Source: Archangium lipolyticum
GTDB taxonomy: Bacteria; Myxococcota; Myxococcia; Myxococcales; Myxococcaceae
Direction: 5' to 3'
DNA length: 64,000 bases
NCBI RefSeq assembly: GCF_024623785.1
Contig: NZ_JANKBZ010000043.1
Location: forward strand, 1 to 64,000
Notes under the pieces: generated by a model
Told to the model about the DNA's origin: nothing
Seen by the model: only the letters and a program-made list of their open reading frames with translations
The model's database searches: none
Part shown: positions 38,689 through 53,893 of the stretch, piece by piece
Layout of the letters: each line of letters opens with the position of its first letter
Numbering within the stretch: the first letter of the stretch is position 1
Translations under genes and position numbers: made by a program

Positions 38689-38704
38689 GGGAGAGGGAAG
38701 AGAC

Positions 38705-39853
38705 ATGCCGAAAGAACTGAAGCTTCCCGCCGTCGAAGTGCGCCAGTCCAAGGGCCGGACGCTGTACTCGTTCGCGGTGGACGGGAAGCTGGTCCATCGC
38801 TTCGCCACCATCTCGCGCGTGAGCCGCAGGGAGGGACAGCTGCACGGCTACCAGCGGCCCGAGGCCCTGGCGCACATCGAGGAGATCCGCAACTACCTCG
38901 AGAGCCCCTCACCGATGGTGCCCAACGCCGTCATCCTGGCCTTCGACTCGCGCGTGCGCTTCAAGCCGGCGGAGACGAAGCCTCCCTCCAAGGAGGTCTA
39001 CTCGCGGCCGGGCACCATCATCATTCCGATGGAGGAGCAGCCCGACGAGGACAAGCCGGGCTTCATCGTGGATGGCCAGCAGCGCCTGGCGGCCATCCGG
39101 GACGCGGCCATCGACAGCTTCCCCATCTGCGTCACGGCCTTCATCACCGACGACATCGGCCAGCAGGCCGAGCAGTTCATGCTCGTCAATTCGACGAAGC
39201 CCCTGTCCAAGGCGCTCCTGTACGAGCTGCTCCCTCAGACCCGCGCCCAGCTCCCCTCGTCCCTCAGCCGCCGCCGGCTCCCGGCCCAGCTCATGGTGCG
39301 GCTCAACCAGGATGAGCGCTCTCCATTGAAGGAGATGATCCAGACGGCGACCCATCCCACGGGCATCATCAAGGACAACTCCATCCTCAAGATGCTCGAG
39401 CACAGCCTGATCGATGGCGCGCTCTACGAGGTCCGGAAGCGGGGCAACACGGAGGACGGCCTCGAGCCCATGATGGAGCTGCTGCGCAACTACTGGACGG
39501 CGGTCTCCCAGGTCTTCAAGGAGGCCTGGGGGAAGCCGCCGAAGAAGTCGCGGCTCATGCATGGCGCGGGGATCATCAGCATGGGCCTGATCATGGACGA
39601 CGCCAGCGCGCTCCTCATGGAGACGGCGCGCCCTCCGACCGTCCAGCAGTACGCGGCCGCGCTCCAGCCGCTCGAGAAGCTCTGCCATTGGACCTCGGGC
39701 ACCTGGGACTTCGGCAATGGCCGCACACGCAAGTGGAATGAATTGCAGAACACGCCCAAGGACATCGATCTGCTCGCCAGGTACCTCACCGACCAGTACA
39801 GGAGTCTGGTGAAGGACCGGCCGCAGAAGCTGCGCCGGGTCGCCCAGCGCTGA
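38705..39853 (+). CDS. DGQHR-domain protein (DpdB/DndB-like)
   Basis: The 382-aa protein has the signature FIVDGQQRLAAIRDAAIDSF (about 119-138), preceded by HGYQRPEALAHIEEIRNYLE and followed by EQFMLVNSTKPLSKALLYEL. This is the ParB-like DGQHR fold of DndB/DpdB, which assists the transglycosylase or binds DNA in modification systems. It starts 16 bp after the dpdA-like stop, behind a GGGAGAGGGAAG ribosome site, and closes the three-gene operon. Confidence 0.85.
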   Translation: MPKELKLPAVEVRQSKGRTLYSFAVDGKLVHRFATISRVSRREGQLHGYQRPEALAHIEEIRNYLESPSPMVPNAVILAFDSRVRFKPAETKPPSKEVYSRPGTIIIPMEEQPDEDKPGFIVDGQQRLAAIRDAAIDSFPICVTAFITDDIGQQAEQFMLVNSTKPLSKALLYELLPQTRAQLPSSLSRRRLPAQLMVRLNQDERSPLKEMIQTATHPTGIIKDNSILKMLEHSLIDGALYEVRKRGNTEDGLEPMMELLRNYWTAVSQVFKEAWGKPPKKSRLMHGAGIISMGLIMDDASALLMETARPPTVQQYAAALQPLEKLCHWTSGTWDFGNGRTRKWNELQNTPKDIDLLARYLTDQYRSLVKDRPQKLRRVAQR

Positions 39854-39869
39854 GAGGTGCCACGCTCCC

Positions 39870-39891
39870 GGGGCCCACGCCCCGTGGCCCC
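39870..39891. terminator. Hairpin after the dpd-like operon
   Basis: GGGGCCCACG pairs with CGTGGCCCC with one bulged base, positions 39870-39891, 17 bp after the operon stop. It is GC-rich with no long T-run, so it is a weak terminator call. Confidence 0.45.
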
Positions 39892-39975
39892 ATCTCCTTG
39901 GCCAGGAGGGATTCCCCGAGGCCCGGAAAGACGAAAGGCCGATATGCTGTGCGTGCAGAGAGCCACACTGCCGGC

Positions 39976-40374
39976 CTAATGCGGCATCGGCGGGACTCGC
40001 TCGAACTGCTGCACGCCGTCGGCGATATCGTAATAGTCGCCTTTCTCTCCCACGAAGACGTGCACGGCGATGTGCGTGTTCGTGGGCGTGTCGAAGGCGC
40101 CCATGGCAAGGCCGATCCAGTCGCGGAACAGCGGATCCCAGAACAGCGAAGAGCCGCAGACCGCACAGAATCCGCGGCGCGCCTTCTCCGACGACTGGTA
40201 CCAGCTCACATGCTCTTCGCCGTTGATCCGCACGCGGGATCGCGGCACGTCCGTAGACACGAAAACATGACCCGACTGCTTGCGGCATGCGGTGCAATGG
40301 CAGGCGTCCGGCGCGGGCAGTTCGCCGTCTACCTCGAAGGTCACAGCGCCGCAGAGACAGCTCCCTTTGTGCAT
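39976..40374 (-). CDS. GFA-family zinc protein
   Basis: The 132-aa protein starts HKGSCLCGAVTFEVDGEL and has HCTACRKQSGHVFVST and FCAVCGSSLFWDP, the Cys pairs of the glutathione-dependent formaldehyde-activating (Mss4-like) fold. A start at 40374 (MHKGSCLCG) gives the family length. A longer frame from 40488 is rejected as non-protein-like. The role is unknown. Confidence 0.92.
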   Translation of the reverse strand: MHKGSCLCGAVTFEVDGELPAPDACHCTACRKQSGHVFVSTDVPRSRVRINGEEHVSWYQSSEKARRGFCAVCGSSLFWDPLFRDWIGLAMGAFDTPTNTHIAVHVFVGEKGDYYDIADGVQQFERVPPMPH

Positions 40375-40519
40375 GGTGATCGGCCCCGTTGTTTGCAGGC
40401 CGATACTAAACGCCATCCGGTCGGTTGCGGCAACCCGCCGGAGGACAGGAACCGTCCCGTGCGAGGCTACCCAGCACGCGTCCTTCACCCTGGAGTGAAG
40501 GCGCGCGCGCGGATCCGGC

Positions 40520-40827
40520 TCAGGGGTTCACGAGGCGACCGAGGAAGAGCACGCTCTTCGTCTCCACGTCCTCGATGAGGAAGAGGAAGGGGCGGTCCAC
40601 GACATACGGCTCGGGCATGGACGTCACCGAGCCGACGATCGCGGTGGCGGCGGCCGCCTCGGTCCCCTGCTCGTTCACGGCGATGAAGGCCTGGTGTTGC
40701 GCGGCCGAAATGAACAGCGCCTCCTGCCGGCTCACGCCCGACAGGTCGGCGCGCGGCGGAGCGCCAAGCCCAGCGCGTTCACGGCCGGATGGAGCCGCTC
40801 CTGCGGCAGGGTGAAGTGGGAAGTCAT
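40520..40827 (-). pseudogene. Serpin remnant
   Basis: The minus strand has a start MTSHFTLPQERLHPAVNALG, then a frame break near 40750. The serpin C-terminus follows: a breach/hinge segment QAFIAVNEQGTEAAAATAIV and the closing FLFLIEDVETKSVLFLGRLV. A functional serpin has about 380 residues; here the core 270 or so are missing. The hinge and the final strand are unmistakable. It is a deletion derivative. Confidence 0.75.
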
Positions 40828-41244
40828 GTCTTGTTCCTCCAAGGAGTGTTGGCCCGCCCGGAAAGCAAGGAGCGTGCGCGCGATGGAAACGAGAAACCGG
40901 CCTGGATTTCGACGAGGCGCTCGCCGCGCCGGACGCCGGAGGTGCCCGGATTACATGGGGTTGGCGCGTGGCCCGGGAATTCTTCCGGGCGAAATGCGCC
41001 ACCCGGGCCCGGCGTGTGTCCTGGAGTCGATGCCCCCCACGGCCCCATGCACCGAGCGCTCACGCTCCCCGGACGACCCCAGGCGCGAGCTCATGGGGAT
41101 TGTATTGCCTTTACCTACCCTTTCACGTTCTCCCAGTGAGTCACGCCCCACAGGGTTGTCGCGAGCAATGTCAGACCCAGGTGGGAAGTTTGCTGTCCGG
41201 CGAAGCACAGACAAGCCCACCCCAGCCAGAGGAAGTGCGCGCAC
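40828..41244. other. Intergenic region upstream of the candidate RiPP cluster
   Basis: These 417 bp hold no frame I can support. A GAGGAAG ribosome site lies at the right end before ATG 41245. A TTGTATTGCC region near 41100 is a possible promoter but has no good -10 partner. Confidence 0.5.
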
Positions 41245-42747
41245 ATGACACTGGACCAACTGAGCGAGGGTCGTTTCGGGCGTCGCGCCTTCGAGGCATT
41301 CGAGTCCGAGACCACCGGCGCCGTGGAGCGGCTCCAGGAACTGCGGCGCGAACTGGACCGCGCCGGCTACCGTGAGGAACAAGTCACCGCGCTGCTGGGG
41401 CTCCCTCACCTGCTCGCACTGCGGCCGGAGCACTTCCACTACTACGATCGCTGGGTCCTGCCCGCCACGCCCCTCGCGGACCTCGTCCGTCTCTTCCTGC
41501 TCGACCTCCCACTCGCGCGGCCCGCGCTGGAGGCGGCGCTGTCTCCGGGCTCCGTGGACCTGCTGGTGGAGCTCGGCGTCCTCGTTCCCTCGGGAGAGCG
41601 GTGGCGCTCCCTGGTGCATCTCTTCTGTTTCGGGAAGCTGCTGCTCGCGACGGACACCGGCCGCTACTCGCCCCTCTGGCCCGAGGGCGAGGATCTGTCG
41701 GATCGCGTCATGTACATCGGCGCCGACAGCGTCGGGCTGGGCCACGCCGCTCCCCGTTCGCCGAGCCGGCGCACGCTCGACCTCTGCTGCGGCAGCGGCA
41801 TCCAAGCGCTCGTCGCCTCGCGCTACAGCGAGGAGGTGCTCGGGGTGGACCTCAACCCCCGGGCCGTCCGCTTCTCGCGCTTCAACGCCGCGCTCAACGG
41901 CATCCGCAACGCACGCTTCGTCCAGGGAGACCTCTTCGAGCCGGTCCGCGGCGTCAGCTTCGACCGCATCCTCGCGAATCCTCCGTTCGTCCCACAGCCC
42001 CCCTCCGTCGCGCGCCTCCTCTACCGCGATGGCGGGCCCACGGGAGAGGACATCCTCCGCCGGCTCTTCCAGGAGGGGCCGCGGCACCTCACCGAGGGGG
42101 GGATGCTGTCCATCACCACGGACCTCATCAACCTGGACGGACTGGAGGAGCGCATCCGCACCTGGACCGAGGGCACACCGACACTCGATGTGCTCGTCCT
42201 CGTGGAGAAGGCCCTGCCCATCGCGAGCTACGCGGAGGGGCACTCGGGCCACCTGAGGACCCCGAGCGAGCGCCGGGCCCATGTCCGCGCGCTCCTGGAC
42301 CACTTCCAGGAGGTGGGCATCACCACCCTCCACGGCGGCTACCTCGTCCTCAGGCGCCTGCCGGAAGGCACGCGGGGCTCCTACCACCTGCTGGACACCG
42401 CGGAGTCCGTCACGCGCCCCGTGGCCCACCACGTCGAGGAGTACTTCCACACGCGCGAGGCCCTGCGCGGCGGAGCGTGCGCTCGCGCCCGGGTGGGGCT
42501 GGCCGAGGGCCTGCACTTCCGGGTCGAGGTCACCAGCGGACCGGAGTCCGAGGAGCAGCGCGTCCAGCTCGTCTGCCCCGGCGATGACTTCTTCCCACCG
42601 ATGGAGATCAGCGAGGGCGTTCATCAATTGCTGCGCTACTTGAAGAAGAACCGCCCGGCCTGGAGCGCCATCGCCACCGAGAGCAGCCGGCCCGTGGTGG
42701 AGGAGCTCCTGCTGCGAGGTGTGCTCCGGCTGCACCCGCGGGAGTGA
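41245..42747 (+). CDS. Class I SAM-dependent methyltransferase
   Basis: The 500-aa protein has a helical N-terminal domain (to about residue 165). A Rossmann methyltransferase core follows with motif I RTLDLCCGSGIQALVASRYS (about 174-193), GVDLNPRAVRFSRFNAALNG, and the NPPF motif in FDRILANPPFVPQPP (about 236-250), typical of N- or O-methyltransferases acting on peptides or nucleic acids (PrmA/HemK-type). An uncharacterised C-terminal domain of about 150 residues completes it. It is on the same strand just upstream of the RiPP precursor and is probably a tailoring enzyme, though a separate promoter lies between. Confidence 0.85.
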   Translation: MTLDQLSEGRFGRRAFEAFESETTGAVERLQELRRELDRAGYREEQVTALLGLPHLLALRPEHFHYYDRWVLPATPLADLVRLFLLDLPLARPALEAALSPGSVDLLVELGVLVPSGERWRSLVHLFCFGKLLLATDTGRYSPLWPEGEDLSDRVMYIGADSVGLGHAAPRSPSRRTLDLCCGSGIQALVASRYSEEVLGVDLNPRAVRFSRFNAALNGIRNARFVQGDLFEPVRGVSFDRILANPPFVPQPPSVARLLYRDGGPTGEDILRRLFQEGPRHLTEGGMLSITTDLINLDGLEERIRTWTEGTPTLDVLVLVEKALPIASYAEGHSGHLRTPSERRAHVRALLDHFQEVGITTLHGGYLVLRRLPEGTRGSYHLLDTAESVTRPVAHHVEEYFHTREALRGGACARARVGLAEGLHFRVEVTSGPESEEQRVQLVCPGDDFFPPMEISEGVHQLLRYLKKNRPAWSAIATESSRPVVEELLLRGVLRLHPRE

Positions 42748-42869
42748 GGTGCGCGGTGGAAGACTCGCCTCTGGACGCGCGACCCGCGCGAGGTGGACGT
42801 GTGCGCGCATGCACTCGCATGTCTGTCTGTGTTTGACCGGCGATTACCTTTTTCACTCGTCTCACCGGG

Positions 42870-42900
42870 TTGAGGGTCATTTCTTGAAATGATATATAAT
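42870..42900 (+). promoter_or_regulatory. Promoter of the RiPP precursor operon with an embedded palindrome
   Basis: TTGAGG (42870-42875) and a consensus TATAAT (42895-42900) are 19 bp apart. Between them TCATTTC (42877-42883), TT, GAAATGA (42886-42892) form a perfect 16-bp palindrome. A consensus -10 is rare in this GC-rich DNA. The palindrome would be bound by a dimeric regulator and would occlude or remodel the promoter. No regulator gene lies in the cluster. Confidence 0.7.
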
Positions 42901-42960
42901 TGTCACCCCGGAGAGGTTCTGAAGAGCAGCGGCGGCACCCCACCCACCCCGAAGGCAGTG

Positions 42961-43272
42961 ATGAACATGAAGAAGGAAATCGAGCAGGAGAAGCAGAATC
43001 AGGAGTCCGAGGCCCCGGCCCGTCCGGTCTCCCGCGCTTCCGCGGCGATCGCGGCGGTGGCGGTGGCTGGCCTGGCGCTGCCCGCGGTGGCCAGCGAGCT
43101 GCCGCAGGCCGAGCAGGCCCCGGTGGAGCAGTCCCAGCCGGCCGAGCTGTCCGGTGATGCGCTGGACAACCTCCTCAAGGGCGCCGACCTCAAGGCCGGC
43201 AAGAACGTCCGTGTCATCAAGGCCCTGGAGATCCGCCCGGGTGCCGTGATCGCTCGTCAGTACGACCGCTAA
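42961..43272 (+). CDS. RiPP precursor peptide candidate
   Basis: The 103-aa product has a charged start (MNMKKEIEQEKQNQESE), a hydrophobic segment with an AxA-like site (AAIAAVAVAGLALPAVAS, about 28-45), and an acidic leader ending ELSGDALDNLLKGADLKAG (about 62-80). The C-terminus is basic (KNVRVIKALEIRPGAV then IARQYDR) with four Arg and many Val/Ile. No Cys exists anywhere, and no Ser or Thr beyond residue 64, which rules out lanthionine and azoline chemistry in the core. It sits 19 bp before the radical SAM gene. The Arg residues fit the arginase-like enzyme, and the Val/Ile and Asp residues fit the B12-radical-SAM and MNIO enzymes. GAAGG precedes ATG 42961. Confidence 0.75.
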   Translation: MNMKKEIEQEKQNQESEAPARPVSRASAAIAAVAVAGLALPAVASELPQAEQAPVEQSQPAELSGDALDNLLKGADLKAGKNVRVIKALEIRPGAVIARQYDR

Positions 43273-43291
43273 TCAAAAAAGGTGATGTCCA

Positions 43292-45376
43292 GTGAGTGTC
43301 CGCACGGTGAGAGAGGTTCTCGAGGCATCGACGCAGCGTTGGTCCAACAGGTGGGGTGACTCCGCACGTCGCAAGGCCCCGGTCTATCTCACACTGTGCG
43401 GCACCACGGACATCACCCAGCCGTACCACAGTCATTCGTACCTGGCCGGAGCGCTCAACCGCTCCGGCCACTCCTATGCCGTCAGGGATCTGGCCATCGA
43501 GTTCTGGCATTACGTCATGTCGCCAGAGGTGATGACGGAGTTGCGCCGCGAGTGCCTGCGGCGGATGGACACGGAGAGCGGTGAGCGGGCCCGGCTGCTG
43601 CGGCTGTTCGCCGGCCTGATGGAGAATGGCGACCGGTTCCGCGCCGCCTTCCAGGCGCTGCGCGATCCGCAGTCCTTCCATCACCTGCCCTCGTACCTGG
43701 CGGCCATCCGCGAGCTCAACCTGCTGCCGCGGATGCTCACGCTCCTGTCGCGCAAGGCCATCTACCGCACCTTCAGCAGCGCCAGCCCGCCGGGCAGCGA
43801 GGAGGACCGCATCAACCTCGTCACGCTCCGCTCCGAGGTCGAGGCGGGCTTCGGCGTCGAGGTGCTCGACTACTTCTACGACTACCACGCGGACCAGATC
43901 GCCTCGCTGGCGCCCGGGTTGGTGGGGCTGAGCATCCCCTTCATCTCGCAGCTCGAGCACAGCCTGATGCTGGGCCACCGGCTGCGCAAGCGGGGCGTCA
44001 AGGTCGCCATCGGCGGGCCCATCGCCGCCAAGTTCTACAAGTACATCGACGACGTGGAGAAGCTGGACATCCTCTCGTTCGGCATGGACTCCCTCATCAC
44101 GGGCGAGGGCGAGACACTCATCTGCAAGCTGGCGGATCAGGCGCAGAACGGCGCCAACATCGGACGGCCCGACAACTTCGTGGACCTGCACGACCCCAAG
44201 CCGCTGGAGCGCTTCTTCTTCGAGAACGTGGAGGAGCTGCCCTCGCCGGACTACAGCCTCTGGGACTACTCGCTCTATGCCTCGCCGGAGCCTGGTGGAC
44301 TCTACTCGCCCACGCGGGGCTGCTACTGGAACAAGTGCTCCTTCTGTGACTACGGCCTGGCGATGAACACCCCGACCTCGCCGTGGCGCACGCGCTCGCC
44401 GGCCAAGGTCGCCGAGGACCTGACCGCGGCCTCCCAGTACGTGAAGTACTTCTTCTTCGCAGTGGACGTGCTGTCGCCCAGCTACGCGCTCAAGGTGTCG
44501 CGCGAGCTCATCGAGCGCGACGTGAAGGTGAAGTGGATGGCGGACTTCCGCCTGGAGTCCACCTTCAAGCTGGAGAACGTGAAGGTGTTCGCCGAGGCCG
44601 GCTGCCTCGGCGCCGCGTTCGGCATGGAGAGCACGGACCAGGACGTCCTCGATCTCATCAACAAGGGCACGCGGGTCAACCGGCTGGAGTACCTCGTCGA
44701 GTCGTTCGCTGGCGTGGGCATCCCGGTGCAGCTCATGGGCTTCACCGGCCACCCGGGAGAGACCCATCGGCAGGCGAAGACGACGCTCGACACGGCCCGG
44801 GCGCTGCTGAAGTCGGCGGCCACGGTGGCCCTGGGCAAGTTCGGCCTGACGCCCGGCGCGGACATCGCCAGGCGGCCCGAGCGCTACGGCATCGACGTGC
44901 ACTACGACGCCTCGGGGGACACGGCCATCCCGTGGGAGCTGCGCTGGACGCACCGCCGCCCGGTGGACAGCTACCCGGAGGACGACTACCGCGAGTCGCT
45001 GCGGCTGGTGCGCGGCTTCCCCTACCCGTTCCTCGGCGCCACGTCGACGCTGCACAGCCTGCTGTACTTCGAGCGCCGGCCCAAGGCCCCCTTCCCCATC
45101 CCCCAGTGGGGGTATGAGCTGTCGTGGGGCCGCTTCCACATCATCCCCTTCTTCGTCCAGATGGCCGAGGGGGACGAGGTGACGGTGCAGAGCGGGCTCA
45201 CCGGCCGCGTCATCCTCCTGCCGCGCGCGGAGGCCGAGACCCTGGAGCGACTCTTCCCCAAGAAGGCCTGGCTGCGCATCGACGCCACCCAGGGCGTCTC
45301 GCAGCAGGTGCAGGATCTGCTCGACTTCCTCGTCGAGCACTCCCTGGCCATGTTCATCCCCGAGGACAGCGTATGA
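43292..45376 (+). CDS. B12-binding radical SAM protein 1
   Basis: The 694-aa protein has an N-terminal cobalamin-binding-like Rossmann domain (LVGLSIPFISQLEHSLMLGH, AIGGPIAAKF, about 180-265). A radical SAM core follows with GCYWNKCSFCDYGLAMN (about 346-362): three Cys spaced CX4CX2C instead of CX3CX2C. It then has AVDVLSPSYALKVSRELIE, and a C-terminal domain of about 200 residues. Such enzymes methylate unactivated carbons in peptides. Start GTG 43292 follows AAAAAAGGTGAT. It overlaps the next gene by 4 bp. Confidence 0.88.
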   Translation: MSVRTVREVLEASTQRWSNRWGDSARRKAPVYLTLCGTTDITQPYHSHSYLAGALNRSGHSYAVRDLAIEFWHYVMSPEVMTELRRECLRRMDTESGERARLLRLFAGLMENGDRFRAAFQALRDPQSFHHLPSYLAAIRELNLLPRMLTLLSRKAIYRTFSSASPPGSEEDRINLVTLRSEVEAGFGVEVLDYFYDYHADQIASLAPGLVGLSIPFISQLEHSLMLGHRLRKRGVKVAIGGPIAAKFYKYIDDVEKLDILSFGMDSLITGEGETLICKLADQAQNGANIGRPDNFVDLHDPKPLERFFFENVEELPSPDYSLWDYSLYASPEPGGLYSPTRGCYWNKCSFCDYGLAMNTPTSPWRTRSPAKVAEDLTAASQYVKYFFFAVDVLSPSYALKVSRELIERDVKVKWMADFRLESTFKLENVKVFAEAGCLGAAFGMESTDQDVLDLINKGTRVNRLEYLVESFAGVGIPVQLMGFTGHPGETHRQAKTTLDTARALLKSAATVALGKFGLTPGADIARRPERYGIDVHYDASGDTAIPWELRWTHRRPVDSYPEDDYRESLRLVRGFPYPFLGATSTLHSLLYFERRPKAPFPIPQWGYELSWGRFHIIPFFVQMAEGDEVTVQSGLTGRVILLPRAEAETLERLFPKKAWLRIDATQGVSQQVQDLLDFLVEHSLAMFIPEDSV

Positions 45377-47133
45377 GCACCACGCGGCTGCTGGTCATCG
45401 TTCCCCCCCATGCGGTGAGCATGGTGAATGGCCCCCCCCTGGCGCCCCTGCTGTTGAAGAACGCGCTGGGTCCCTGCGGTGTCGACGTCCGGCTCTTCGA
45501 TGCCAACGTGCGCTTCTTCCGCTGGCTGCTGCGGCCGGAGGTGCGCCAGGAGATCACCGGCGAGCTCAAGCGCCTGGTGCAGGAGCAGTTCGCCAAGGAG
45601 GTCCTCTCCCAGGACGACCTGACGCGGGTGGGCCGCCTGCTGACGTTCCTCAGCAGCGACTACTGCCAGGGCAAGGACTTCGCCCTGCAGCGCTCGGGCA
45701 TGGACTGGGGTGGCGCCCACGAGGTGTTCATCAACCCGCCGGACACCGTGCCGGATCCGGCATTCCGCGCGCGCCTGATGGCCCAGGCCATGGACGTGCT
45801 GGCCGAGGAGATCGCCGCCCAGTCGCCCGAGCACATCGCCTTCTCGGCGCTGTTCCACACCCAGTGCGAGACCATCGTCGCGCTCTGCAAACGCCTGCGC
45901 GCGCGCGGCTTCCAGGGGAAGATCATCCTGGGCGGCGCGGCCATCAAGCTGAGCGATGACCCGTACCTGGGCTTCCTGCTGCGGGAGTCCACCGCCAACC
46001 TCGCCTACAAGTTCAACCTGTACCAGGAGTTCCCCACGCTGGCGGACTACCTGGCGGGCCGCATCGGCGTGGAGGGCGTGGCGCACGGCACCTACCTGGA
46101 TGCCGCGGGGAACATCCAGCACACGGCCACGCAGACGAGCCGGGTGAAGAAGCTCGCCGGTCCCCTGGCCTACGACATCGTCGAGCCGGACAACTACATG
46201 GGGGACCTCATCTTCCCGGTGCTGTTGTCCGAGGGCTGCTACTGGGGCAAGTGCGACTTCTGTGACTACCCCTTCCTGGCCTCGCAGAACCCCTTCACCA
46301 TCTCGGCCATCTTCCGGGACCCGGTACACGTGCTCCAGGACGTGAACAACGTGGTGGAGCGGTTCGGGGTGAAGCGGATCGATCTCATCTCCGACGCGGT
46401 GCCCATGGGCTACTTCCCGCGTCTGGCGAAAGCCGGAGGCGAGACGCTGAAGGCGCTCGGCGTGAGGATGGAGTGCTCCGTCCGGGCCGAGCCCAAGGCG
46501 CAGCCGCAGCACTTCGAGGCCATGGCCGCCTGCGGCATGGATCTGGTGACCATCGGCGTGGAGTCCGTCTGCGACGAGGTCCTCGAGGGGATGAAGAAGG
46601 GCAACACGTACGCGGACATCGTCCGGTGCATGCAGATGGCCCGGCAGCACGGCATCAAGGTGAAGGCCAACCTCATCCACAACCACCCCCGGATGAAGCC
46701 CCACCACATCACCGAGACGCTCACCCGCCTCCAGGAGATCATCCCGTACATCGAGTCGCTCGGCGTGCACTCCTTCGGGCTGACGCCGCACGCGCCCATC
46801 GCCTACGCGCCGCAGGAGGCCAACCTCGTCATCCTGCCGGACCGGAAGACGACCAACGACCATGGCCAGCACCACCTGCAGTTCGTCCGCGCCGACCTCA
46901 CCCCGGAGCTCGCCCAGGGCTTCGAGGCGCTGAAGACGGAGGTGGAATCGCTCGCGTTCGAGCTGGAGATGCGCAAGGGCGCGATGAGCGCCGAGCAGAA
47001 GGTGCTAAAGCTCCCGTACCGCTGGGCAGGGGACCATGCCCGCCGTGACAGCACCCAGCCGGACCTGATGGTGGAGATCCCCGGCAAGCGCACCCCGTTC
47101 TCCTTCTTCGTGGGCGAGTATGCGGGAGCATGA
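45373..47133 (+). CDS. B12-binding radical SAM protein 2
   Basis: The 586-aa protein has an N-terminal B12-type domain (LLVIVPPHAVSMVNGPPLAP, HIAFSALFHTQCETIVALCK, KIILGGAAIKLSDDPYLGF) and a radical SAM core with EGCYWGKCDFCDYPFLASQ (about 291-309), again CX4CX2C. A TIM-barrel with GVESVCDEVLEGMKKGNTY follows. It shares ATGA with the preceding gene and overlaps the next by 14 bp. Two distinct B12-radical-SAM enzymes in one cluster suggest two different carbon modifications. Confidence 0.88.
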   Translation: MSTTRLLVIVPPHAVSMVNGPPLAPLLLKNALGPCGVDVRLFDANVRFFRWLLRPEVRQEITGELKRLVQEQFAKEVLSQDDLTRVGRLLTFLSSDYCQGKDFALQRSGMDWGGAHEVFINPPDTVPDPAFRARLMAQAMDVLAEEIAAQSPEHIAFSALFHTQCETIVALCKRLRARGFQGKIILGGAAIKLSDDPYLGFLLRESTANLAYKFNLYQEFPTLADYLAGRIGVEGVAHGTYLDAAGNIQHTATQTSRVKKLAGPLAYDIVEPDNYMGDLIFPVLLSEGCYWGKCDFCDYPFLASQNPFTISAIFRDPVHVLQDVNNVVERFGVKRIDLISDAVPMGYFPRLAKAGGETLKALGVRMECSVRAEPKAQPQHFEAMAACGMDLVTIGVESVCDEVLEGMKKGNTYADIVRCMQMARQHGIKVKANLIHNHPRMKPHHITETLTRLQEIIPYIESLGVHSFGLTPHAPIAYAPQEANLVILPDRKTTNDHGQHHLQFVRADLTPELAQGFEALKTEVESLAFELEMRKGAMSAEQKVLKLPYRWAGDHARRDSTQPDLMVEIPGKRTPFSFFVGEYAGA

Positions 47134-47995
47134 GAAGACGTCCCCGGGTGAGCCCGAGGAGCTGATCGGCTTCGGCGGGGCGGTGGTCCGTTCCATGGAG
47201 GAGCTGCCCGAGCAGTCCGGGGGGGCCGCGTGCTTCTTCGGGGTGGACAGCGAGCTGTCGCGGCGCTTCGGTGCCTCCAACGAGGGGGCCGCCGTCTTCA
47301 TCCGCTCGGCCTCGGCGCGGATGCGTCCGTGGACGCGGCGCGAGCGGCCCGGGGCCACCGACGTGGGCGTGCTACGGGGCTCGCCCGCCCAGGTGATGGA
47401 GGAGACACTCTTGATGGGAGCGGGCCTGGCGGCCCGGGGCTTCGTCCCCGTGGCGGTGGGGTGTGATCACACCGTCAGCTACGCCCACGCGCTCGGCGTG
47501 TGCCGGGAGCGCCGCACCACGTACGTCTACCTCGATGCGCACCTGGACCTCGGCCTGCACGACGACCGGCGGCAGCCGGACCTCCACAACGGCAACTTCA
47601 TTGGCGCGTTGGTGCGCAGCGGACGCTTCGAGCAGGTGGTGAACGTGGGCGCGCGCTCCTGGACCACCCATGACGAGGCCTATGAGGCCCAGACCGGCGT
47701 CACCATCCTGCGCTCGGCCAGTCTGGATGCGCTGGCCTTCCTGCGGGGCCGTGACGTGTATGTGAGCCTCGACGTGGACGTGCTCGACCCGACCTTCGTT
47801 CCCAACATGTGCTGCCGCGAGCCCTTCGGCTTCACACCGCGGGAGCTGCTGAGCATCATGGAATGGCTGCGCCGCCACTGCAACGTGCTGGGCGCCGACG
47901 TGTCGGAGCTGGCTCCGGACACACAACACGGGCACACCGCGGAGATCGCGATGCGCTGCGTACACGAGTTGATCGGCCCCCGAGGAGGACCGTGA
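47120..47995 (+). CDS. Arginase/agmatinase-family enzyme, likely peptide arginase
   Basis: The 291-aa protein has the ureohydrolase manganese motifs: AVGCDHTVSYAH (His ligand), YVYLDAHLDLGLHDDRRQPD (DAHxD), HNGNF, and VYVSLDVDVLDPTFVPNMCC (DxDxxDP), then GADVSELAPDTQ. All the metal ligands are present, so it should be active. In a RiPP cluster such an enzyme would convert precursor Arg to ornithine. The role is inferred from context; the fold is clear. Confidence 0.88.
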   Translation: MREHEKTSPGEPEELIGFGGAVVRSMEELPEQSGGAACFFGVDSELSRRFGASNEGAAVFIRSASARMRPWTRRERPGATDVGVLRGSPAQVMEETLLMGAGLAARGFVPVAVGCDHTVSYAHALGVCRERRTTYVYLDAHLDLGLHDDRRQPDLHNGNFIGALVRSGRFEQVVNVGARSWTTHDEAYEAQTGVTILRSASLDALAFLRGRDVYVSLDVDVLDPTFVPNMCCREPFGFTPRELLSIMEWLRRHCNVLGADVSELAPDTQHGHTAEIAMRCVHELIGPRGGP

Positions 47996-48540
47996 TGACG
48001 ACCTTGACGTCGCGGCGCGTGGTGTTGCGGCCGCATACCCCCCAGAGCTTCGAGCGCCTCCACCGGTGGAAGAACGACCGGGAGATCCTGGAGCTCAGCT
48101 CCGACAGCATGGAGCCCTCCCCCGAGGAGAAGACGCGGCGCACGCTGGAGCGGTGGATGAAGGAGAGCGAGGACATCATCCACTTCGCCATCCACCGCGC
48201 GGACACCGACGAGCTCATCGGGTTCCTGCACCTGGCGCTCATCGAGCGGGAGCACCAGCGCTGCAAGCTCGGGCTCGTCATCGGGGAGAAGCAGTACTGG
48301 GGTCAGGGGTACGGCACCGAGGCGGTGCGGTGCGCGGTGGACCATGGCTTCTCGCAGCTGGGCCTGAACCGGATCTCCGCCGAGGTGTACGCGACCAACC
48401 CGCGCTCGGTGCGGATGTTGGAGCGTGCCGGCTTCCGGCGCGAGGGGGTGCTGCGCGAGAGCATCCTCAAGGACGGCGCCTTCGTCGACGAGTACCCCTA
48501 CGCGCTGCTGCGCCGCGAGTGGGAGGAGGCCCGCCGATGA
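47995..48540 (+). CDS. GNAT acetyltransferase (RimJ/RimL type)
   Basis: The 181-aa protein has the RimJ/RimL layout: VVLRPHTPQSFERLHRWKND, then GLVIGEKQYWGQGYGTEAVR (CoA-binding QGYGTEA, about 95-114) and NPRSVRMLERAGFRREGVLR. Its ATG shares a base with the arginase stop (TGATG). The likely substrate is an amine on the modified peptide, possibly an ornithine side chain or N-terminus. It overlaps the next gene by 4 bp. Confidence 0.9.
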   Translation: MTTLTSRRVVLRPHTPQSFERLHRWKNDREILELSSDSMEPSPEEKTRRTLERWMKESEDIIHFAIHRADTDELIGFLHLALIEREHQRCKLGLVIGEKQYWGQGYGTEAVRCAVDHGFSQLGLNRISAEVYATNPRSVRMLERAGFRREGVLRESILKDGAFVDEYPYALLRREWEEARR

Positions 48541-49343
48541 TCTCCCTCGGCATCAGCGTCTCGGACTACATGCCGGACCGGGGACACATCGACCCGGAGG
48601 TGTACGCGCGCGTCGACTACATCGAGTACGGCGGCCACTTTCCCCCGGTGAAGGACCTGGGGGTGGAGCGCATCCGGGCCCTGGGGCATGCCCCGCGGAT
48701 GACGCGGCACCTGGTGTCGGTGGAGCTGCCGGCGGAGCTGGACGTGGCCGCGGAGGTGGAGAGCATCCGGAACGACCTCGCCGGGGTGCGACCCGAGTAC
48801 CTCGTGACGGACTTCGGCTACTGGCGCCTGGGCGGGCGGGAGCTGGAGAGCCTCTGGTTCCGGCCCTGTACGCTCTCCGAGGCGGCCGCGAGCCGCATCG
48901 CCCACAACGCCGAGGCCCTGGGCGCGGAGCTCGGCATGGCCGTGCACCCCGAGAATCCCTTCTCCCTGAGCTTCGTGGGGGAGTTGAACCTCTCCGACTT
49001 CATGCGGGCGCTCGCCGAACGCGGGGCGAAGCTCTGCTTCGACGTGGGCCACTTCTATGCCGTGTGCGTCAACACCGGCACGCCAGTGCACGAGGCCTTC
49101 GAGCGCCTGCCCTTCGAGGCGTTCCGGGTGGCGCACATCGCGGGCCTCTCCAGCGTCGAATACGGAGGACAACGCTTCCTGCTCGACAACCACAACGTCC
49201 CGCCGCTCCCGGAGTGCGTGGAGCTGCTGGCCGAGGCGGCACGCAGGTCCCCGGGCATGCAGTGGGTGACCTACGAGGCGGAGCTGGCGTCCACGGACGT
49301 GCAGCACGCGGGACTCGACGCGATTGCGAGGAAGCTGAGATGA
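48537..49343 (+). CDS. DUF692-family (MNIO-like) enzyme 1
   Basis: The 268-aa protein is a TIM-barrel of the DUF692 type. It has VDYIEYGGHFPP, MAVHPENPFSLSFVGELNLS (H-x-E-N-P, about 139-158), KLCFDVGHFYAVCVNTGTPV (D-x-x-H plus N, about 169-188), VAHIAGLSS and a later DNHNVPP. These supply the His, Asp, Glu and Asn ligands that hold the iron cluster in MbnB- and ApyH-like multinuclear iron enzymes. It would modify the precursor oxidatively. ATGA overlap on both sides. Confidence 0.82.
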   Translation: MISLGISVSDYMPDRGHIDPEVYARVDYIEYGGHFPPVKDLGVERIRALGHAPRMTRHLVSVELPAELDVAAEVESIRNDLAGVRPEYLVTDFGYWRLGGRELESLWFRPCTLSEAAASRIAHNAEALGAELGMAVHPENPFSLSFVGELNLSDFMRALAERGAKLCFDVGHFYAVCVNTGTPVHEAFERLPFEAFRVAHIAGLSSVEYGGQRFLLDNHNVPPLPECVELLAEAARRSPGMQWVTYEAELASTDVQHAGLDAIARKLR

Positions 49344-49984
49344 GCACGAAGAATGGTAGCGAGGAGATTCTGGACACGGACTGCTTCCGGCAGCTCGTGC
49401 GCACCCCGCCTCCGGCGTCGGACGTCCCAGCGCACCTGGCGTGGGTGCGGCTCATGGCCCAGGTGCTGGCGAGCCTGGAGTCGTGGGCCCCGCACTTCAC
49501 CACCGCGCTCCTGTCCCACTACCGCTCGCTGGACGGGCTGCGGCCCTTCTGCGAGGCGGGAGAGTACGAGCGCGCGTACCTGGACCGCGTCCCCCACGCG
49601 CTCAACTTCCTGCGCTACTTCCTGGGCACGTCCGAGCCCCAGTGGCTCAAGGACCTGGCGCGCTGCGAGACGTGGTCCGCCGCGCTGCGCGGCGGCGTGT
49701 CCCCGGAGCTGCGCGGGCGCCTGAAGGAGGTGCTCCGCATCGAGTCGCGAGGCGACAAGGAGTTCGCGCTCGTCTCCCATGACGTGCTGGAGACGCTGCA
49801 GCACCTGACGGGCTTCGCCGACACCACGATGAGCCGCACGGGACGGATGCTGTGGCTGCTCGGCGTCCCCCCCATCTACCCCGTCCAGCGCACGGTGGCG
49901 CGGCCGGGCCTCGTTCTCTTCCGGAGCTTGGGGGGGGACGTGGAGATGACCTACCTGCCCGCCGGGGAGTCGGCCTCGCGATGA
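49340..49984 (+). CDS. Unknown protein between the two MNIO genes, likely a partner
   Basis: The 214-aa, mostly helical protein has WVRLMAQVLASLESWAPHF, then LDRVPHALNFLRYFLGTSEP and a C-terminal PPIYPVQRTVARPGLVLFRS. I do not recognise a family. Its place, translationally coupled to MNIO genes on both sides, is where a precursor-recognition partner (compare MbnC or TglI) usually lies. No membrane segment or signal is present. Confidence 0.6.
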   Translation: MSTKNGSEEILDTDCFRQLVRTPPPASDVPAHLAWVRLMAQVLASLESWAPHFTTALLSHYRSLDGLRPFCEAGEYERAYLDRVPHALNFLRYFLGTSEPQWLKDLARCETWSAALRGGVSPELRGRLKEVLRIESRGDKEFALVSHDVLETLQHLTGFADTTMSRTGRMLWLLGVPPIYPVQRTVARPGLVLFRSLGGDVEMTYLPAGESASR

Positions 49985-50829
49985 GCTCCGTGAGGATCGG
50001 CGTCGGCGTGGAGGCGGCGTGCGACCAATACGCCGAGAGCGCCCTGAGCGAGGCGGGTCTCACCGACTTCGTCGAGTACGGCATCCACGTGGCCAGGGGG
50101 GTGCCCGAGTGGGTGCGGGCCGTGCGGGAGCGGCTGGGTGCGCGGCTCAACCTGCACCCGCTCGACCTGAACCTGGGCGGCGGTGACAGCACCACCGATG
50201 GGTGGTGCGAGGCGCTGGCGGGGCTGGCCCGGGAGCTGCGTGCGACCGCCCTCGTGAGTGACATGGGCTTCTGGTACCTGGGCCACCGCGGCTCGACGTG
50301 GCCCCGGCCACCGAGCATGCCCGCGGCGGCGGCGGCCTGCCGGGACACCGCGGCCCGCATCGCCCGGGCGTGTGGCATCCCGTTCCGCGTGGAGAATCCG
50401 CCGCTGGAGTGGGTGCCCGGTCAGCCCTCGCTCTGGCACTTCCTGGAGCAGGCCTCGGCCGAGGACGGCGTGGAGCTCTGCCTCGATCTGTCGCACCTGC
50501 TCCAGTTCGAGATGAACGTCCACGGTCGGGCGCCCACCCTGCCGCGCTCGTTCCCCTGGCAGAAGGTCACGGAGCTCCACCTGGCCGGGTTCATCCGGGT
50601 CGAGTACCAGGGGCGCCAGCACTACATCGACGAGCACCTCGCGGACATCCCCGACGAGGAGTACCGCCTGCTGTCCCAGGTGCTGGAACTGCGCGGGAGT
50701 GGGAGCCCGCTGGAGATCTGCCTGGAGATGGAGCCCCGCGGAGCAGCGGCCTTCGAGGCCGAGGCCAGCCGCCTCCGGGAGGCGCTCGGCGGGAGCGCCC
50801 GCCAGGCCCTCGAGCGCCGTAGGCGGTGA
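49981..50829 (+). CDS. DUF692-family (MNIO-like) enzyme 2
   Basis: The 282-aa protein has FVEYGIHVARGVPEW, ALVSDMGFWYLGHRGS, PFRVENPPLEWVPGQ (E-N, about 136-150), ELCLDLSHLLQFEMNVHGRA (D-x-x-H and N), ELHLAGFIRV and YIDEHLADIPDEEY, with a last Glu in EICLEMEP. It shares the DUF692 fold with the gene two places upstream but is only distantly similar, so the two probably catalyse different steps. It is the last gene of the operon. Confidence 0.75.
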   Translation: MSSVRIGVGVEAACDQYAESALSEAGLTDFVEYGIHVARGVPEWVRAVRERLGARLNLHPLDLNLGGGDSTTDGWCEALAGLARELRATALVSDMGFWYLGHRGSTWPRPPSMPAAAAACRDTAARIARACGIPFRVENPPLEWVPGQPSLWHFLEQASAEDGVELCLDLSHLLQFEMNVHGRAPTLPRSFPWQKVTELHLAGFIRVEYQGRQHYIDEHLADIPDEEYRLLSQVLELRGSGSPLEICLEMEPRGAAAFEAEASRLREALGGSARQALERRRR

Positions 50830-50921
50830 GGCGGGTGTGCGTTCGACACCGCGTCCAGCGTTCCGTCCGCGCGCAGGAGCTGCTCCATGGCAACACGCCA
50901 TACGCTTCGCGGGCAAAAAGA

Positions 50922-50951
50922 AAGGGCGTCAGACCGGAGTCTGACGCCCTT
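50922..50951 (-). terminator. Rho-independent terminator of tRNA-Phe
   Basis: AAGGGCGTCAGAC (50922-50934) pairs perfectly with GTCTGACGCCCTT (50939-50951). On the minus strand it is followed by TTTCTTTTTG, downstream of tRNA-Phe. It may also stop the RiPP operon from the other side. Confidence 0.92.
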
Positions 50952-50970
50952 CAAATTTCGTGAGACTTTG

Positions 50971-51043
50971 TGCCCAGGGGCGGAATCGAACCACCGACAC
51001 GGGGATTTTCAGTCCCCTGCTCTACCAACTGAGCTACCTGGGC
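50971..51043 (-). tRNA. tRNA-Phe (GAA)
   Basis: The minus strand folds as a cloverleaf with acceptor GCCCAGG/CCTGGGC, D-arm AGCTCAGTTGGTAGAGC, anticodon loop CTGAAAATC (anticodon GAA) and T-arm GGTTCGATTCC. The length is 73 nt and the CCA is not encoded. Confidence 0.97.
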
Positions 51044-51235
51044 GTTCTGCTCAACCGCGCGAAGTACGGGCGATTTACGGGGACTCGGCCCTTACGTCAA
51101 GCTGGTTCTTCAACTCCACCCCACTTCCTCTCCTTCCCCCTCCCCGCTCGCACGCCCGGCCGCCCTCCTCTCCTCCCGCCCGCACACCCCGTGCGTTTCC
51201 GTTAAATCCCCGCCATCTCCCCCGGAGGCCCCTGC

Positions 51236-52132
51236 GTGAGCTGGCTCAACTACCACCACCTCCTCTACTTCTGGACCGTCGCCCGCGCCGGCTCCATCGC
51301 CAAGGCCAGCCAGGAACTCCACCTCGCCCAGCCCACCATCAGTGCCCAACTCAAGCTCCTCGAGGAGTCCCTCGGCCACAAGCTCTTCGAACGCCAGGGC
51401 CGCCGCCTCGTCCTCACCGACGTCGGCCGCACCGTCCTCCGCTACGCCGAGGACATCTTCCGCCTCGGCAACGAGCTCAAGAACGTCGTCAACGGCATGC
51501 CCTCCGGCCAGGGCCTCCGCGTCGCCGTCGGCGTCACCGACGTCATCCCCAAACTCGTCGCCGAACGCCTCCTCCAGCCCGCCTTCGACGTCTCCCCAGA
51601 CCTCCGCATCACCTGCCGCGAAGGCCCCCTCCCCCAGCTCCTCGCCTCCCTCGCCCTCCACGAGCTCGACGTCGTCCTCGCCGACTCCCCCTCCCCAGAG
51701 CCCGTCAGCGTCCGCTCCTTCAACCACCTGCTCGGCAAGTGCGGCGTCTCCTTCTTCGCCGCCCCCAGGCTCGCTCACCTCTCGAAGGGATTCCCTCGCT
51801 CCCTCGACGGGGCTCCCGTCCTCCTGCCCTCCGATGCCTCCTCCGTCCGCCGCTCCCTCGAGATGTGGTTCGACTCCCGCGGCATCCACCCCGTCATCAC
51901 CGGCGACTTCGACGACTACGCCCTCTTGACCGCCTTCGGTCAGCACGGCCACGGCGTCTTCGCCGCCCCCTCCGTCATCGAGCAGGAGGTGTGTCGACAG
52001 TTCAATGTCTCCGTCATCGGGCACACCGCTGACATCGAGACCTGCTTCTACGCCATCTCCGTCGAGCGGCGACTCAGGCACCCCGCCGTCGTCGCCATCG
52101 CGGAGACTGCTCGGTCACGGTTGTTCGGGTAG
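51236..52132 (+). CDS. nhaR: LysR-family regulator (NhaR-like)
   Basis: The 298-aa protein starts MSWLNYHHLLYFWTVARAGS and has the LysR wing-helix IAKASQELHLAQPTISAQLK, followed by a periplasmic-binding-like effector domain. The YHHLLYFWTVAR opening and the tail IETCFYAISVERRLRHPAVV are characteristic of the NhaR subgroup, which responds to sodium. GTG 51236 follows CGGAGG. No nhaA gene is adjacent. Confidence 0.88.
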   Translation: MSWLNYHHLLYFWTVARAGSIAKASQELHLAQPTISAQLKLLEESLGHKLFERQGRRLVLTDVGRTVLRYAEDIFRLGNELKNVVNGMPSGQGLRVAVGVTDVIPKLVAERLLQPAFDVSPDLRITCREGPLPQLLASLALHELDVVLADSPSPEPVSVRSFNHLLGKCGVSFFAAPRLAHLSKGFPRSLDGAPVLLPSDASSVRRSLEMWFDSRGIHPVITGDFDDYALLTAFGQHGHGVFAAPSVIEQEVCRQFNVSVIGHTADIETCFYAISVERRLRHPAVVAIAETARSRLFG

Positions 52133-52140
52133 CGAGGGTA

Positions 52141-52175
52141 GACCCTCACCCCAACCCTCTCCCAGAGGGAGAGGG
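52141..52175. repeat. REP-like palindrome, copy 7
   Basis: GACCCTCACCCC then CCCTCTCCC-agag-GGAGAGGG, between the LysR and amidohydrolase genes. Confidence 0.9.
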
Positions 52176-52186
52176 TGTTGCTTCGC

Positions 52187-53893
52187 TCAGGGGGAACGGT
52201 GCACTTCACGGCCATCCACCACCGTCGCCACCACCTTCGCGTCCACCAGTTTCTTCGGCTCGTCCGTCACCGGATCCACCGATAGCACCGTGAAGTCCGC
52301 GTCCATCCCCTCCACCAGACGCCCCCTTCGTCTCTCCGCGAACGACGCCCACGCCGGCCCCACCGTGAAGCCCTCCAGCGCCTCTTCCCCCGTCAGTCGC
52401 TCCTGGGGCTGCCAGCCCCCCTCCGGTCTCCCCCCCCCGTCCTGACGCGTCCTCGCCGCATACAGCCCCGCCAGGACGTCCGGGTTCTCGATCGGGAAGT
52501 CGCTCCCCAACGCCAGCACCGCCCCCGCCTCCTTCAGGCTCCTCCACGCGTACGCCCCCTTCAGCCTCTCCGCCCCAAGTCTCGCCTCCGCCCACCCCAT
52601 GTCGCTCGTCGCGTGCGTCGGCTGCACGCTCGCCACCAGCCCCGCCTCCCCCAGCTTCTCGATGTCCTCCGGCCGGAGGATCTGCGCGTGCTCCACCCGG
52701 TGCCTCAGCGCCTTCGTCCCCGTCCCCGCCGACGCGCGGATCAGCGTGTCCACCACCAGCGTGTTCGCCCGATCCCCTATCGCGTGGATGCACACCTGGA
52801 AGCCCCTCTCCATGAACGCCCACGTCCTCGCCGACAGCTCCTCCGGCTCCATCAGCAACAGCCCCGTCTCCCCTGGCGCGTCGCTGTAGGGCTCGTGCAG
52901 CGCCGCCCCTCTCGAGCCCAGCGCCCCGTCCAGCAGGAACTTCACCGCCTTCATCTCCAGCATCCGCCCGCTGTACGTCCCCAGCTCCAGGTACGTCTGC
53001 CGGTCCCCTCCCTGCCCATCCGCCATCGCGTACACCCGCACCGGCAGCCGCCCCGCCATGTCCCACATCTGCAGCCGCCGGAACGTCCTCAGGTCCATCC
53101 CCGCGTCGTGCACCCCCGTCAGCCCCACCTCCGCGCACCGCGCCAGCGCCGCCGAGAGTCTCGCCTCCAACTGCTCGTCCGTCGGCGGCGGCACCACCCC
53201 CGCCACCAGGTCCATCGCGTTGTCCACCAGCACGCCCGTCGGCTCGCCCTTCGTGTCCCTCAGGATCCGCCCTCCCGCCGGATCCGGCGTCTCGCGCGTG
53301 ATGCCCGCCCGCCGCAGCGCCTCCCCGTTCACCCACGCCGCGTGATGGTCCACCCGCGTCAGGTACACCGGAGTCTTCGCAAAGCGCGCGTCCAGCTCGG
53401 CCCGTCCCGGAAAGGCCTTGCCCGGCCACCCGTTCTGGTCCCACCCCTTCCCCACCAGCCAGTCCCCCTGGAAGCTCGTGGACGGTGCCTCCCCCAGGCG
53501 CTGGATGACCTCGTCCACCGAGCGCGCTCCCTCCAGCCTCGCCACCGTCAGGCTCCGCCCCAGTCCCGCCAGGTGCGCGTGCGCGTCCACCAGCCCCGGC
53601 ACCACCACCGCGCTCCCGTAGTCGACGACCCGCGCCCCCTCGCCCGCCGCCTTCAGCACCTCCGCCTTCGTCCCCACCGCCAGCAGCCGCCCCTCGCGCA
53701 CCGCCAACGCCTGGGCCTCCGGCTTCCTCGCGTCCAGCGTCCGGATCCGGCGTGCCACGTAGACTGTCGTCTCCACTCGCGCTCCCTCGGGCGCCCTCCG
53801 GGCGCACCCCAGCCCCAGCGCCAGCACCAGCATCCCCAAGAGGACGCCCCGTGCCGCACCGCGGGCCCGTGTTCCGTGTTCGTGTTGGACCAT
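52187..53893 (-). CDS. Amidohydrolase lipoprotein (YtcJ-like)
   Basis: The 568-aa product has a lipoprotein signal (LGMLVLALGLGC) and an Amidohydro_3 domain. It has the metal-binding VPGLVDAHAHLAGLG (about 98-112), LVGKGWDQNGWPGKAF, ALRHRVEHAQILRPEDIEKL and ALGSDFPIENPDVLAGL. Such enzymes hydrolyse amide or related bonds. The substrate is unknown. It may act on external compounds from the cell surface. Confidence 0.9.
   Translation of the reverse strand: MVQHEHGTRARGAARGVLLGMLVLALGLGCARRAPEGARVETTVYVARRIRTLDARKPEAQALAVREGRLLAVGTKAEVLKAAGEGARVVDYGSAVVVPGLVDAHAHLAGLGRSLTVARLEGARSVDEVIQRLGEAPSTSFQGDWLVGKGWDQNGWPGKAFPGRAELDARFAKTPVYLTRVDHHAAWVNGEALRRAGITRETPDPAGGRILRDTKGEPTGVLVDNAMDLVAGVVPPPTDEQLEARLSAALARCAEVGLTGVHDAGMDLRTFRRLQMWDMAGRLPVRVYAMADGQGGDRQTYLELGTYSGRMLEMKAVKFLLDGALGSRGAALHEPYSDAPGETGLLLMEPEELSARTWAFMERGFQVCIHAIGDRANTLVVDTLIRASAGTGTKALRHRVEHAQILRPEDIEKLGEAGLVASVQPTHATSDMGWAEARLGAERLKGAYAWRSLKEAGAVLALGSDFPIENPDVLAGLYAARTRQDGGGRPEGGWQPQERLTGEEALEGFTVGPAWASFAERRRGRLVEGMDADFTVLSVDPVTDEPKKLVDAKVVATVVDGREVHRSP

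Follow-up and report, generated by a model that had tools for sequence, protein, structure and literature searches.

The nine genes at positions 41245-50829 of the stretch analysed here (the window: 64,000 nucleotides of the Archangium lipolyticum genome, positions 1 to 64,000 of contig NZ_JANKBZ010000043.1) form a unit of 9.6 kb, all of them intact and on the + strand, and we refer to them in order as A to I. Overall, we consider it likely that this unit is a cluster for a ribosomally synthesised and post-translationally modified peptide (RiPP), acquired as a block and belonging with the group whose multinuclear non-heme iron-dependent oxidative enzymes (MNIOs) resemble those of biphenomycin biosynthesis; its product would be a small peptide modified at the C-terminal QYDR of its precursor, with an arginine converted to ornithine, by reactions that we infer. 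What carries this reading comes from computation: the unit itself and its conservation, the families of its enzymes, the partner-like fold of one protein, the invariance of QYDR, and an MNIO signature common to the cluster and biphenomycin-type enzymes.

The nine genes are a real unit, beyond chance and rare in the sampled genomes. The initial annotation had suggested a comparison of gene order, and all nine genes recur in the same order in four other genomes, one from the same family and three from Streptomyces. The same-family copy encodes the nine proteins at 84-92% identity, and when window positions 36001-56000 are compared with it by blastn the similarity is confined to 41217-42742 and 42923-50810; third codon positions vary most in all seven of the genes counted (A, C, D, F, G, H and I, with B and E left out), where they hold 46-69% of the differences. 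In the three Streptomyces loci the nine proteins are 45-67% identical to those of the window (46-67% in two of them), and blastn between two of these loci, L014 and L015, again confines the similarity to the nine genes (7644-9249 and 9591-17515). Because the order is kept in four other genomes and the changes are biased toward third positions, we take the block to be beyond chance. A third Streptomyces copy, L028, is 99.5% identical to L014; the five copies found thus include four clearly distinct ones, in two distant groups. A search with C of 145 genomes of the order (E up to 1e-40) returned two matches, the window's own and one other, and a search with D of 195 genomes of the phylum, a sample that overlaps the first (E up to 1e-20), returned the same two genomes; a contig scan with C gave two loci, both in Streptomyces. 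Among 392 genomes of a Streptomyces genus sample, the C profile (E up to 1e-40) made eight matches, two of them full clusters (L014 in genome G195 and L028 in G554) and six a distant relative of C only, while the H profile found G195 alone among 396 genomes of the Streptomyces phylum. Plasmid searches yielded one distant match with C and no match with H.

Within the unit the genes are tightly packed. Gaps of 219 bp and 19 bp separate A from B and B from C; from there on the genes overlap, by 4 (C/D), 14 (D/E), 1 (E/F), 4 (F/G), 4 (G/H) and 4 (H/I) bases, so that the earlier statement that every junction from the first radical-SAM gene onward overlaps is exact, at six of six junctions. The description of a nine-gene RiPP-type cluster with one precursor is likewise borne out, the genes being present and intact; functions had been named for eight of the nine, and H, left unlabelled there, is given a TglI-like fold below. 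A Pfam scan found neither a protease nor a transporter among the nine genes.

The cluster lies in a slot, window 39854-50969, between a gene ending at 39853 and a tRNA-Phe gene (GAA; 50970-51043, - strand) that forms its right edge in comparisons with same-genus relatives. Right-flank homology resumes at window 50967-50970 in four of five such relatives; in the remaining one, G045, it does so at 50913. The slot is nearly empty in G044, where only 183 bp separate the end of the left flank (window 39820) from the tRNA edge, and is occupied by other DNA of about 3.1 kb in G047 and of about 5.1 kb in G043; for G046 and G045 the left flank was not seen within the stretches compared. Since the relatives' flanks resume at the tRNA with differing or near-absent DNA between them, the slot beside tRNA-Phe is a variable one. 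The cluster was probably acquired horizontally, as a block. A repeat of the tRNA-Phe end was looked for within the window, where only the tRNA itself was found, and an integrase was not specifically searched for. The slot also holds, at about 40520-40800 on the - strand, a stretch that by eye resembles the C-terminal part of a serpin; no search was run on it and no intact gene was identified there.

Gene B (42967-43272, + strand) encodes the precursor, a peptide of 101 residues. Its predicted start is placed at 42967: the second genome lacks an ATG where the window has one at 42961, and the ATG at 42889 falls in sequence that the two genomes do not have in common, although the second genome possesses an in-frame start codon of its own, 63 bp ahead of MKK. 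A profile built on the precursor makes a single strong match per genome in four of four genomes (E 1.5e-45 to 5.6e-45, the next best being 0.049). Across the two distant groups tblastn matches B in its last 36 residues only (43162-43269, + strand, 61% identity) and the rest diverges. The four aligned precursors give the tail pattern LD..L..ADL.....VRV.K.LEI.PG...A.QYDR, and the terminal QYDR (43258-43269, + strand), identical in all four, is the likely site of modification. The N-terminus has a neutral to basic start followed by a hydrophobic, Ala-rich stretch, and contains a segment resembling a signal peptide, IAAVAVAGLALPAVA (43048-43092, + strand), with a Kyte-Doolittle maximum of 2.35; the Streptomyces copy L014 reaches 1.95, and the call is based on hydropathy rather than on a signal-peptide predictor. 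B contains no Phe, no FRF motif and no Cys.

A tie to biphenomycin comes from the two MNIOs, G (48537-49343, + strand, 268 residues) and I (49981-50829, + strand, 282 residues). Both had been named as divergent DUF692 enzymes, and both exceed the PF05114 cut-off of 25 (50.9 bits for G, 56.2 for I) while carrying an altered pair of metal ligands; the G profile matches TglH in the Protein Data Bank (PDB) at E 2.9e-7. The ligands of TglH are His71, His107, Glu151, Asp184, Asn187, His216, Asp229, His231 and Glu258 (PMC10880893). At these positions G and I have Asp for His107 and His for Asn187, with the other seven kept, so that all nine residues remain of ligand type. The Asp/His pair is found in 13 of 13 sequences comprising four G, four I, four biphenomycin-type MNIOs and L004, and the His/Asn pair in all 17 other MNIOs of the set. 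In the MNIO tree, which left out L055 (an empty read), L060 (an in-frame stop), L005 and L063-L077, the split between these 13 and these 17 has 100/100 support, and G pairs with I as its sister at 94/91, at a node that is not starred. On account of the shared Asp/His signature and the 100/100 split, G and I belong, as judged from their sequences, in the biphenomycin-like MNIO group, that of PbsC and BipE. The pair may perhaps go back to an old duplication. L004 (C1:680522-681241 of genome G000, - strand), which also bears the Asp/His signature, is a further MNIO encoded in the window's genome and sits in an open frame of 550 codons with room for a putative fused second domain. Many genomes of the family give an MNIO match of about 100 bits in frames of 550-720 codons that may be of the L004 type, of which L004 was the one read.

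Between them lies H (49340-49984, + strand, 214 residues), a probable MNIO partner protein. It makes no Pfam or NCBIfam match at E up to 1, and its assignment comes from the modelled fold (mean predicted local distance difference test score, pLDDT, 67.5, dropping below 50 at both ends and in residues 156-187). In a second-look structural alignment the best chain was TglI 8hi7_A (Z 8.6, root-mean-square deviation 5.0 over 169 residues), followed by TglI 8hci_A (Z 8.4) and MbnC 7dz9_C (4.1), with the first unrelated chain at 4.0. We take 8hi7_A, of 269 residues, to be TglI because the DUF692 chain of the complex has 304 residues and because PMC12452194 gives 8hi7 that name, and we credit the match because the top three of the 793 chains aligned to H are MNIO partners. 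The model thus suggests that H is probably a partner of the TglI/MbnC-like fold, with a helical N-terminal domain and a small alpha/beta domain like a RiPP recognition element.

C (43292-45376, + strand, 694 residues, motif GCYWNKCSFC) and D (45373-47133, + strand, 586 residues, motif GCYWGKCDFC) are radical S-adenosylmethionine (SAM) enzymes, probably of the B12 type. Both pass the PF04055 cut-off (45.1 and 56.6 bits) and both have the three-Cys motif CX4CX2C. The NCBIfam model for RiPP radical-SAM C-methyltransferases, TIGR03975, matches them below its cut-off (E 3.4e-21 for C, 1.3e-25 for D), and profile searches of the PDB bring up as the nearest entries AprD4 (E 0.00016) and TokK (E 0.0022) for C and OxsB (E 3.7e-9) for D, the TokK and OxsB matches aligning over the radical-SAM part. 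The pattern GCYW[GN][KR]C.FC is common to C, D and two biphenomycin-type enzymes (GCYWGKCTFC and GCYWGRCVFC); on the ApyD model of the aminopyruvatide pathway, C and D score 29.7 and 18.5 against 750. More distant relatives of C occur in a different RiPP-like cluster, at 32-34% identity in five Streptomyces genomes of the genus sample (L029-L033) and at 32% on the Sinorhizobium meliloti plasmid pAK76 (L013). L029-L033 share a conserved short peptide of 65-68 codons (the longest frame, in L030, has 92) that ends in NVVC or NVLC. Its conserved neighbours, in the loci scanned, comprise an MFS gene together with a second radical-SAM gene (L029) and a flavoprotein gene (L030); L013 has the flavoprotein and radical SAM in common with them. 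Perhaps these loci represent a RiPP family whose C-terminal Cys is decarboxylated.

The remaining enzymes are more readily assigned. E (47120-47995, + strand, 291 residues) is an arginase/agmatinase-family ureohydrolase, as proposed: it scores 112.1 bits on PF00491 (cut-off 22), matches the PDB agmatinase 1wog at E 3.4e-19, and keeps the metal-binding motifs GxDH, DAHLD and DVDVLD intact and invariant in four of four copies. F (47995-48540, + strand, 181 residues), earlier called an acetyltransferase, proves to be a plain RimJ/RimL-like GNAT enzyme by PF13302 (106.9 bits, cut-off 25.4; aligned in four of four), with sub-threshold NCBIfam matches to spermidine and antibiotic acetyltransferases. 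A (41245-42747, + strand, 500 residues) is a class I SAM methyltransferase similar to N-methyltransferases, over the cut-offs of PF05175 (58.7 bits) and PF23186 (44.5 bits). Its best PDB match by profile is the gentamicin N-methyltransferase 5u4t (E 1.3e-26), with HemK 2b3t at 1e-8; NCBIfam PrmC/HemK matches fall below cut-off, and the NPPF motif, N245-P246-P247-F248, is invariant in four of four copies. HemK enzymes methylate a Gln amide. Since the Gln of QYDR is invariant, a Gln amide is our first guess for the target of A.

A general pathway can be proposed in which every substrate assignment, the order of the steps and the route of export are inferred. H, together with G and/or I, would bind the tail of B and present QYDR to the enzymes. 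The MNIOs would then oxidise invariant residues, the best candidates being Tyr, whose ring would be hydroxylated as happens in biphenomycin, and, with less certainty, Asp; precedents for MNIO chemistry include ortho-hydroxylation of Phe (PMC12257519), conversion of a C-terminal Asp (PMC10635010), beta-hydroxylation of Asp (pes) and hydroxylation of homocitrulline (PMC13174530). E would convert Arg of B to Orn, most likely at the invariant C-terminal Arg, and it could plausibly act after the MNIO step: the biphenomycin arginase PbsE does so (PMC12257519), and Sg_BipC also accepts unmodified peptide (PMC12707348). F may then acetylate the new Orn amine; the two changes nearly cancel in mass, at -42.02 Da for Arg to Orn and +42.01 Da for acetylation (net about -0.011 Da). 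C and D, as B12-type radical-SAM enzymes, would C-methylate or cross-link the peptide, and A would methylate a nitrogen, the best candidate being the amide of the invariant Gln. With no protease or transporter in the block, cleavage and export would depend on host systems or on the signal-like segment of B.

At the same time, a number of observations weigh against this assignment or against parts of it. Up to E 1, the profile of I matched none of the MNIOs in the PDB, and the MNIO tree flags long-branch joins, among them that of G plus I with the biphenomycin-type sequences. Both enzymes keep the TglH Fe3 residues Asp229 and His231, which counts against a role like that of PesH; because PesH and PflD, which beta-hydroxylate Asp, are without the Fe3-binding motif and G and I have it, hydroxylation of Phe or Tyr is the better precedent for the pair. 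The Z score of H, under about 13 for a mostly helical model that is weak in parts, may reflect a common arrangement; Foldseek alone gave 79 matches for H up to E 10, of which none reached 0.001 and the best was an unrelated globin, and hhalign (probability 0.1) found no sequence similarity between H and biphenomycin-type partners. The B12-binding model PF02310 stays below its cut-off of 32.1 in both C (24.2 bits) and D (25.0 bits), so the label of B12-radical-SAM proteins given in the initial annotation holds for the radical-SAM domain and, as a probable type, for B12, whose domain is matched only below cut-off; the structural model of C, at a mean pLDDT of 37, is unusable. In B, the Arg of the VRV stretch is invariant in the four aligned precursors besides the C-terminal one, so the target of the arginase is not fixed. 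The leader of B resembles those of biphenomycin precursors weakly, 45, 67 and 16 of 1000 column shuffles being as good at widths 10, 13 and 16 (the width-10 optimum lies in another register), and this sequence similarity is suggestive only. Finally, MNIO RiPPs often have Sec signal peptides, but these accompany DUF2063-type partners (PMC12452194); a signal-like B with a TglI-like partner (PME-type 2) runs counter to that correlation and would be an exception to it should the segment prove a genuine signal peptide.

How new the system is depends on what it is compared with. The enzyme set had been put forward as lacking a close precedent, and this is not supported: biphenomycin (pbs/bip) clusters, described in 2025, already combine an MNIO and its partner with an arginase and a B12-radical-SAM enzyme (PMC12257519, PMC12707348). 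They also displace aminopyruvatide as the nearest comparison, because G and I carry the biphenomycin-type ligand signature. Nor is a second MNIO distinctive by itself, as the pes cluster has PesH and PesX and PMC12452194 reports others. Like the biphenomycin clusters, ours has an MNIO with the Asp/His signature, a separate partner, a radical-SAM enzyme with GCYW[GN][KR]CxFC, an arginase, and a short core near the C-terminus. As judged from sequence, the cluster is related to biphenomycin through its MNIOs and radical-SAM motif, and differs in its core, its second MNIO and its extra tailoring enzymes. Aminopyruvatide (apy) shares with it an MNIO and partner, a B12-radical-SAM enzyme, a SAM methyltransferase and a C-terminal motif with Tyr and Asp, but has its Asp at the very C-terminus and a Cys motif in the leader (PMC10635010), whereas Asp is penultimate in B; moreover, no P450 is found among the nine genes and C and D fall far below the ApyD model. 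With neither a terminal Asp nor a Cys in B, aminopyruvatide is ruled out. Nitrilobacillin (pes) is similar in that its MNIO acts near the C-terminus, PesHI beta-hydroxylating an Asp, in having two MNIO-like proteins with one partner, and in a predicted arginase in some orthologous clusters; it is unlike ours in its R(V/T)DN core and nitrile synthetase, in the available account's describing no radical-SAM pathway enzyme, and in that PesX is without the metal residues and PesH without the Fe3 motif, both of which G and I keep. The 3-thiaglutamate pearlin pathway (tgl) provides the best structural match of H, TglI, and there a PEARL-added Cys is the substrate (PMC10880893). A bufferin-like MNIO RiPP is ruled out, B having no Cys and H no Pfam match, with no DUF2063 partner. 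In the literature searched, with most subscription papers and supplements outside its scope, there was no match for the full set of two MNIOs with intact metal sites, two radical-SAM enzymes, a PF00491 arginase, a GNAT, an N-methyltransferase-like enzyme and a QYDR core, nor for QYDR in combination with RiPP precursor terms.

Several other explanations have to be weighed against our own. That the cluster is simply of the biphenomycin type is suggested by the enzyme classes and the MNIO signature that the two share, and we regard it as extremely improbable: biphenomycin precursors have an aromatic FRF/FHAFRF core, whereas B ends in QYDR, and the precursor sequence refutes the idea as stated. 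The arginase BipC there is a UPF0489 protein (PMC12707348), unlike the PF00491 enzyme E; the TldD protease, MFS and hydroxylase of those clusters have no equivalents among the nine genes, and the window has instead a second MNIO, a second radical-SAM enzyme, an N-methyltransferase-like enzyme, a GNAT and a signal-like leader. Biphenomycin proper is thus ruled out by a precursor free of Phe and by a different arginase. A less drastic departure would be that only some of the enzymes modify B, E or F acting on free small molecules or in self-resistance, where the GNAT would acetylate a toxic product, so that the peptide would bear MNIO, radical-SAM and methyl marks alone. The nearest PDB relatives of E are agmatinases, and F is a generic GNAT with sub-threshold matches to acetyltransferases of spermidine and antibiotics, as this explanation would have it; set against this, both genes belong to the run of overlapping genes and are retained in five of five copies, and biphenomycin provides a known case of a peptide arginase next to an MNIO (PMC12707348), which leaves this division of labour unlikely.

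The ratio of seven tailoring enzymes (A, C, D, E, F, G and I) to four invariant terminal residues raises the further idea that B is a pearlin-like carrier, a scaffold from whose C-terminus a single modified amino acid or dipeptide is cut as the product. It would fit the resemblance of H to TglI, the partner protein of the pearlin pathway, and the lack of protease and transporter genes among the nine, but a PEARL-type ligase is likewise missing among them and the invariant end is four residues rather than one; we think it quite unlikely. That the product is a metallophore, with Orn, oxidised Asp and oxidised Tyr as three metal-binding groups on a short peptide, is a matter of chemical plausibility drawn from siderophore chemistry, and MNIO RiPPs are often tied to metals (PMC12452194). 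It is made very improbable by the lack of an uptake gene among the nine and by the upstream sequences, for in eight regions there was no good iron-box-like site, the best agreeing with the consensus at 12 of 19 positions. No N-hydroxylation by an MNIO is known to us.

Our preferred reading, a RiPP cluster of the biphenomycin-like MNIO group, can be pressed further. In its boldest form, which we put forward tentatively and think somewhat unlikely, the cluster would be the first of a new RiPP class, with seven tailoring enzymes all acting on QYDR: two MNIOs with intact metal sites, served by a single partner, would oxidise two different residues, the arginase and GNAT would leave a terminal N-acyl-ornithine, all four residues would become non-standard, and the product might be a ribosomally made antibiotic or metallophore. 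With an acetyltransferase gene directly after that of the arginase, the operon does suggest a route from Arg to acyl-Orn, and we know of no RiPP with such a route. In this context, G and I, with their metal sites kept and one partner gene between them, let one ask whether a single partner can serve two active catalytic subunits; in the pes cluster, as far as described, the second MNIO-like protein is inactive. The chemistry of MNIOs has been explored little, the characterised ones making up a small part of the family network (PMC13174530), and the closest relatives, of the biphenomycin type, make a potent antibiotic (PMC12707348). A compact unit of this length, present in two distant groups and with a single short precursor, is directly testable by co-expression.

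The biphenomycin-type clusters used for comparison were recovered from Streptomyces through the published FHAFRF motif. The pattern occurs in 9 of the 392 genomes of the Streptomyces genus sample, a count that shows no enrichment because the reversed control scored 10 matches. Five FHAFRF precursors from that sample lie in short, precursor-like frames (L036, L038, L040, L042 and L043), and four of these loci were extended for comparison, L043 being left out. In one biphenomycin-type locus, L047, the arginase candidate has 420 residues and matches TPR models only, and MFS and TldD genes lie nearby.

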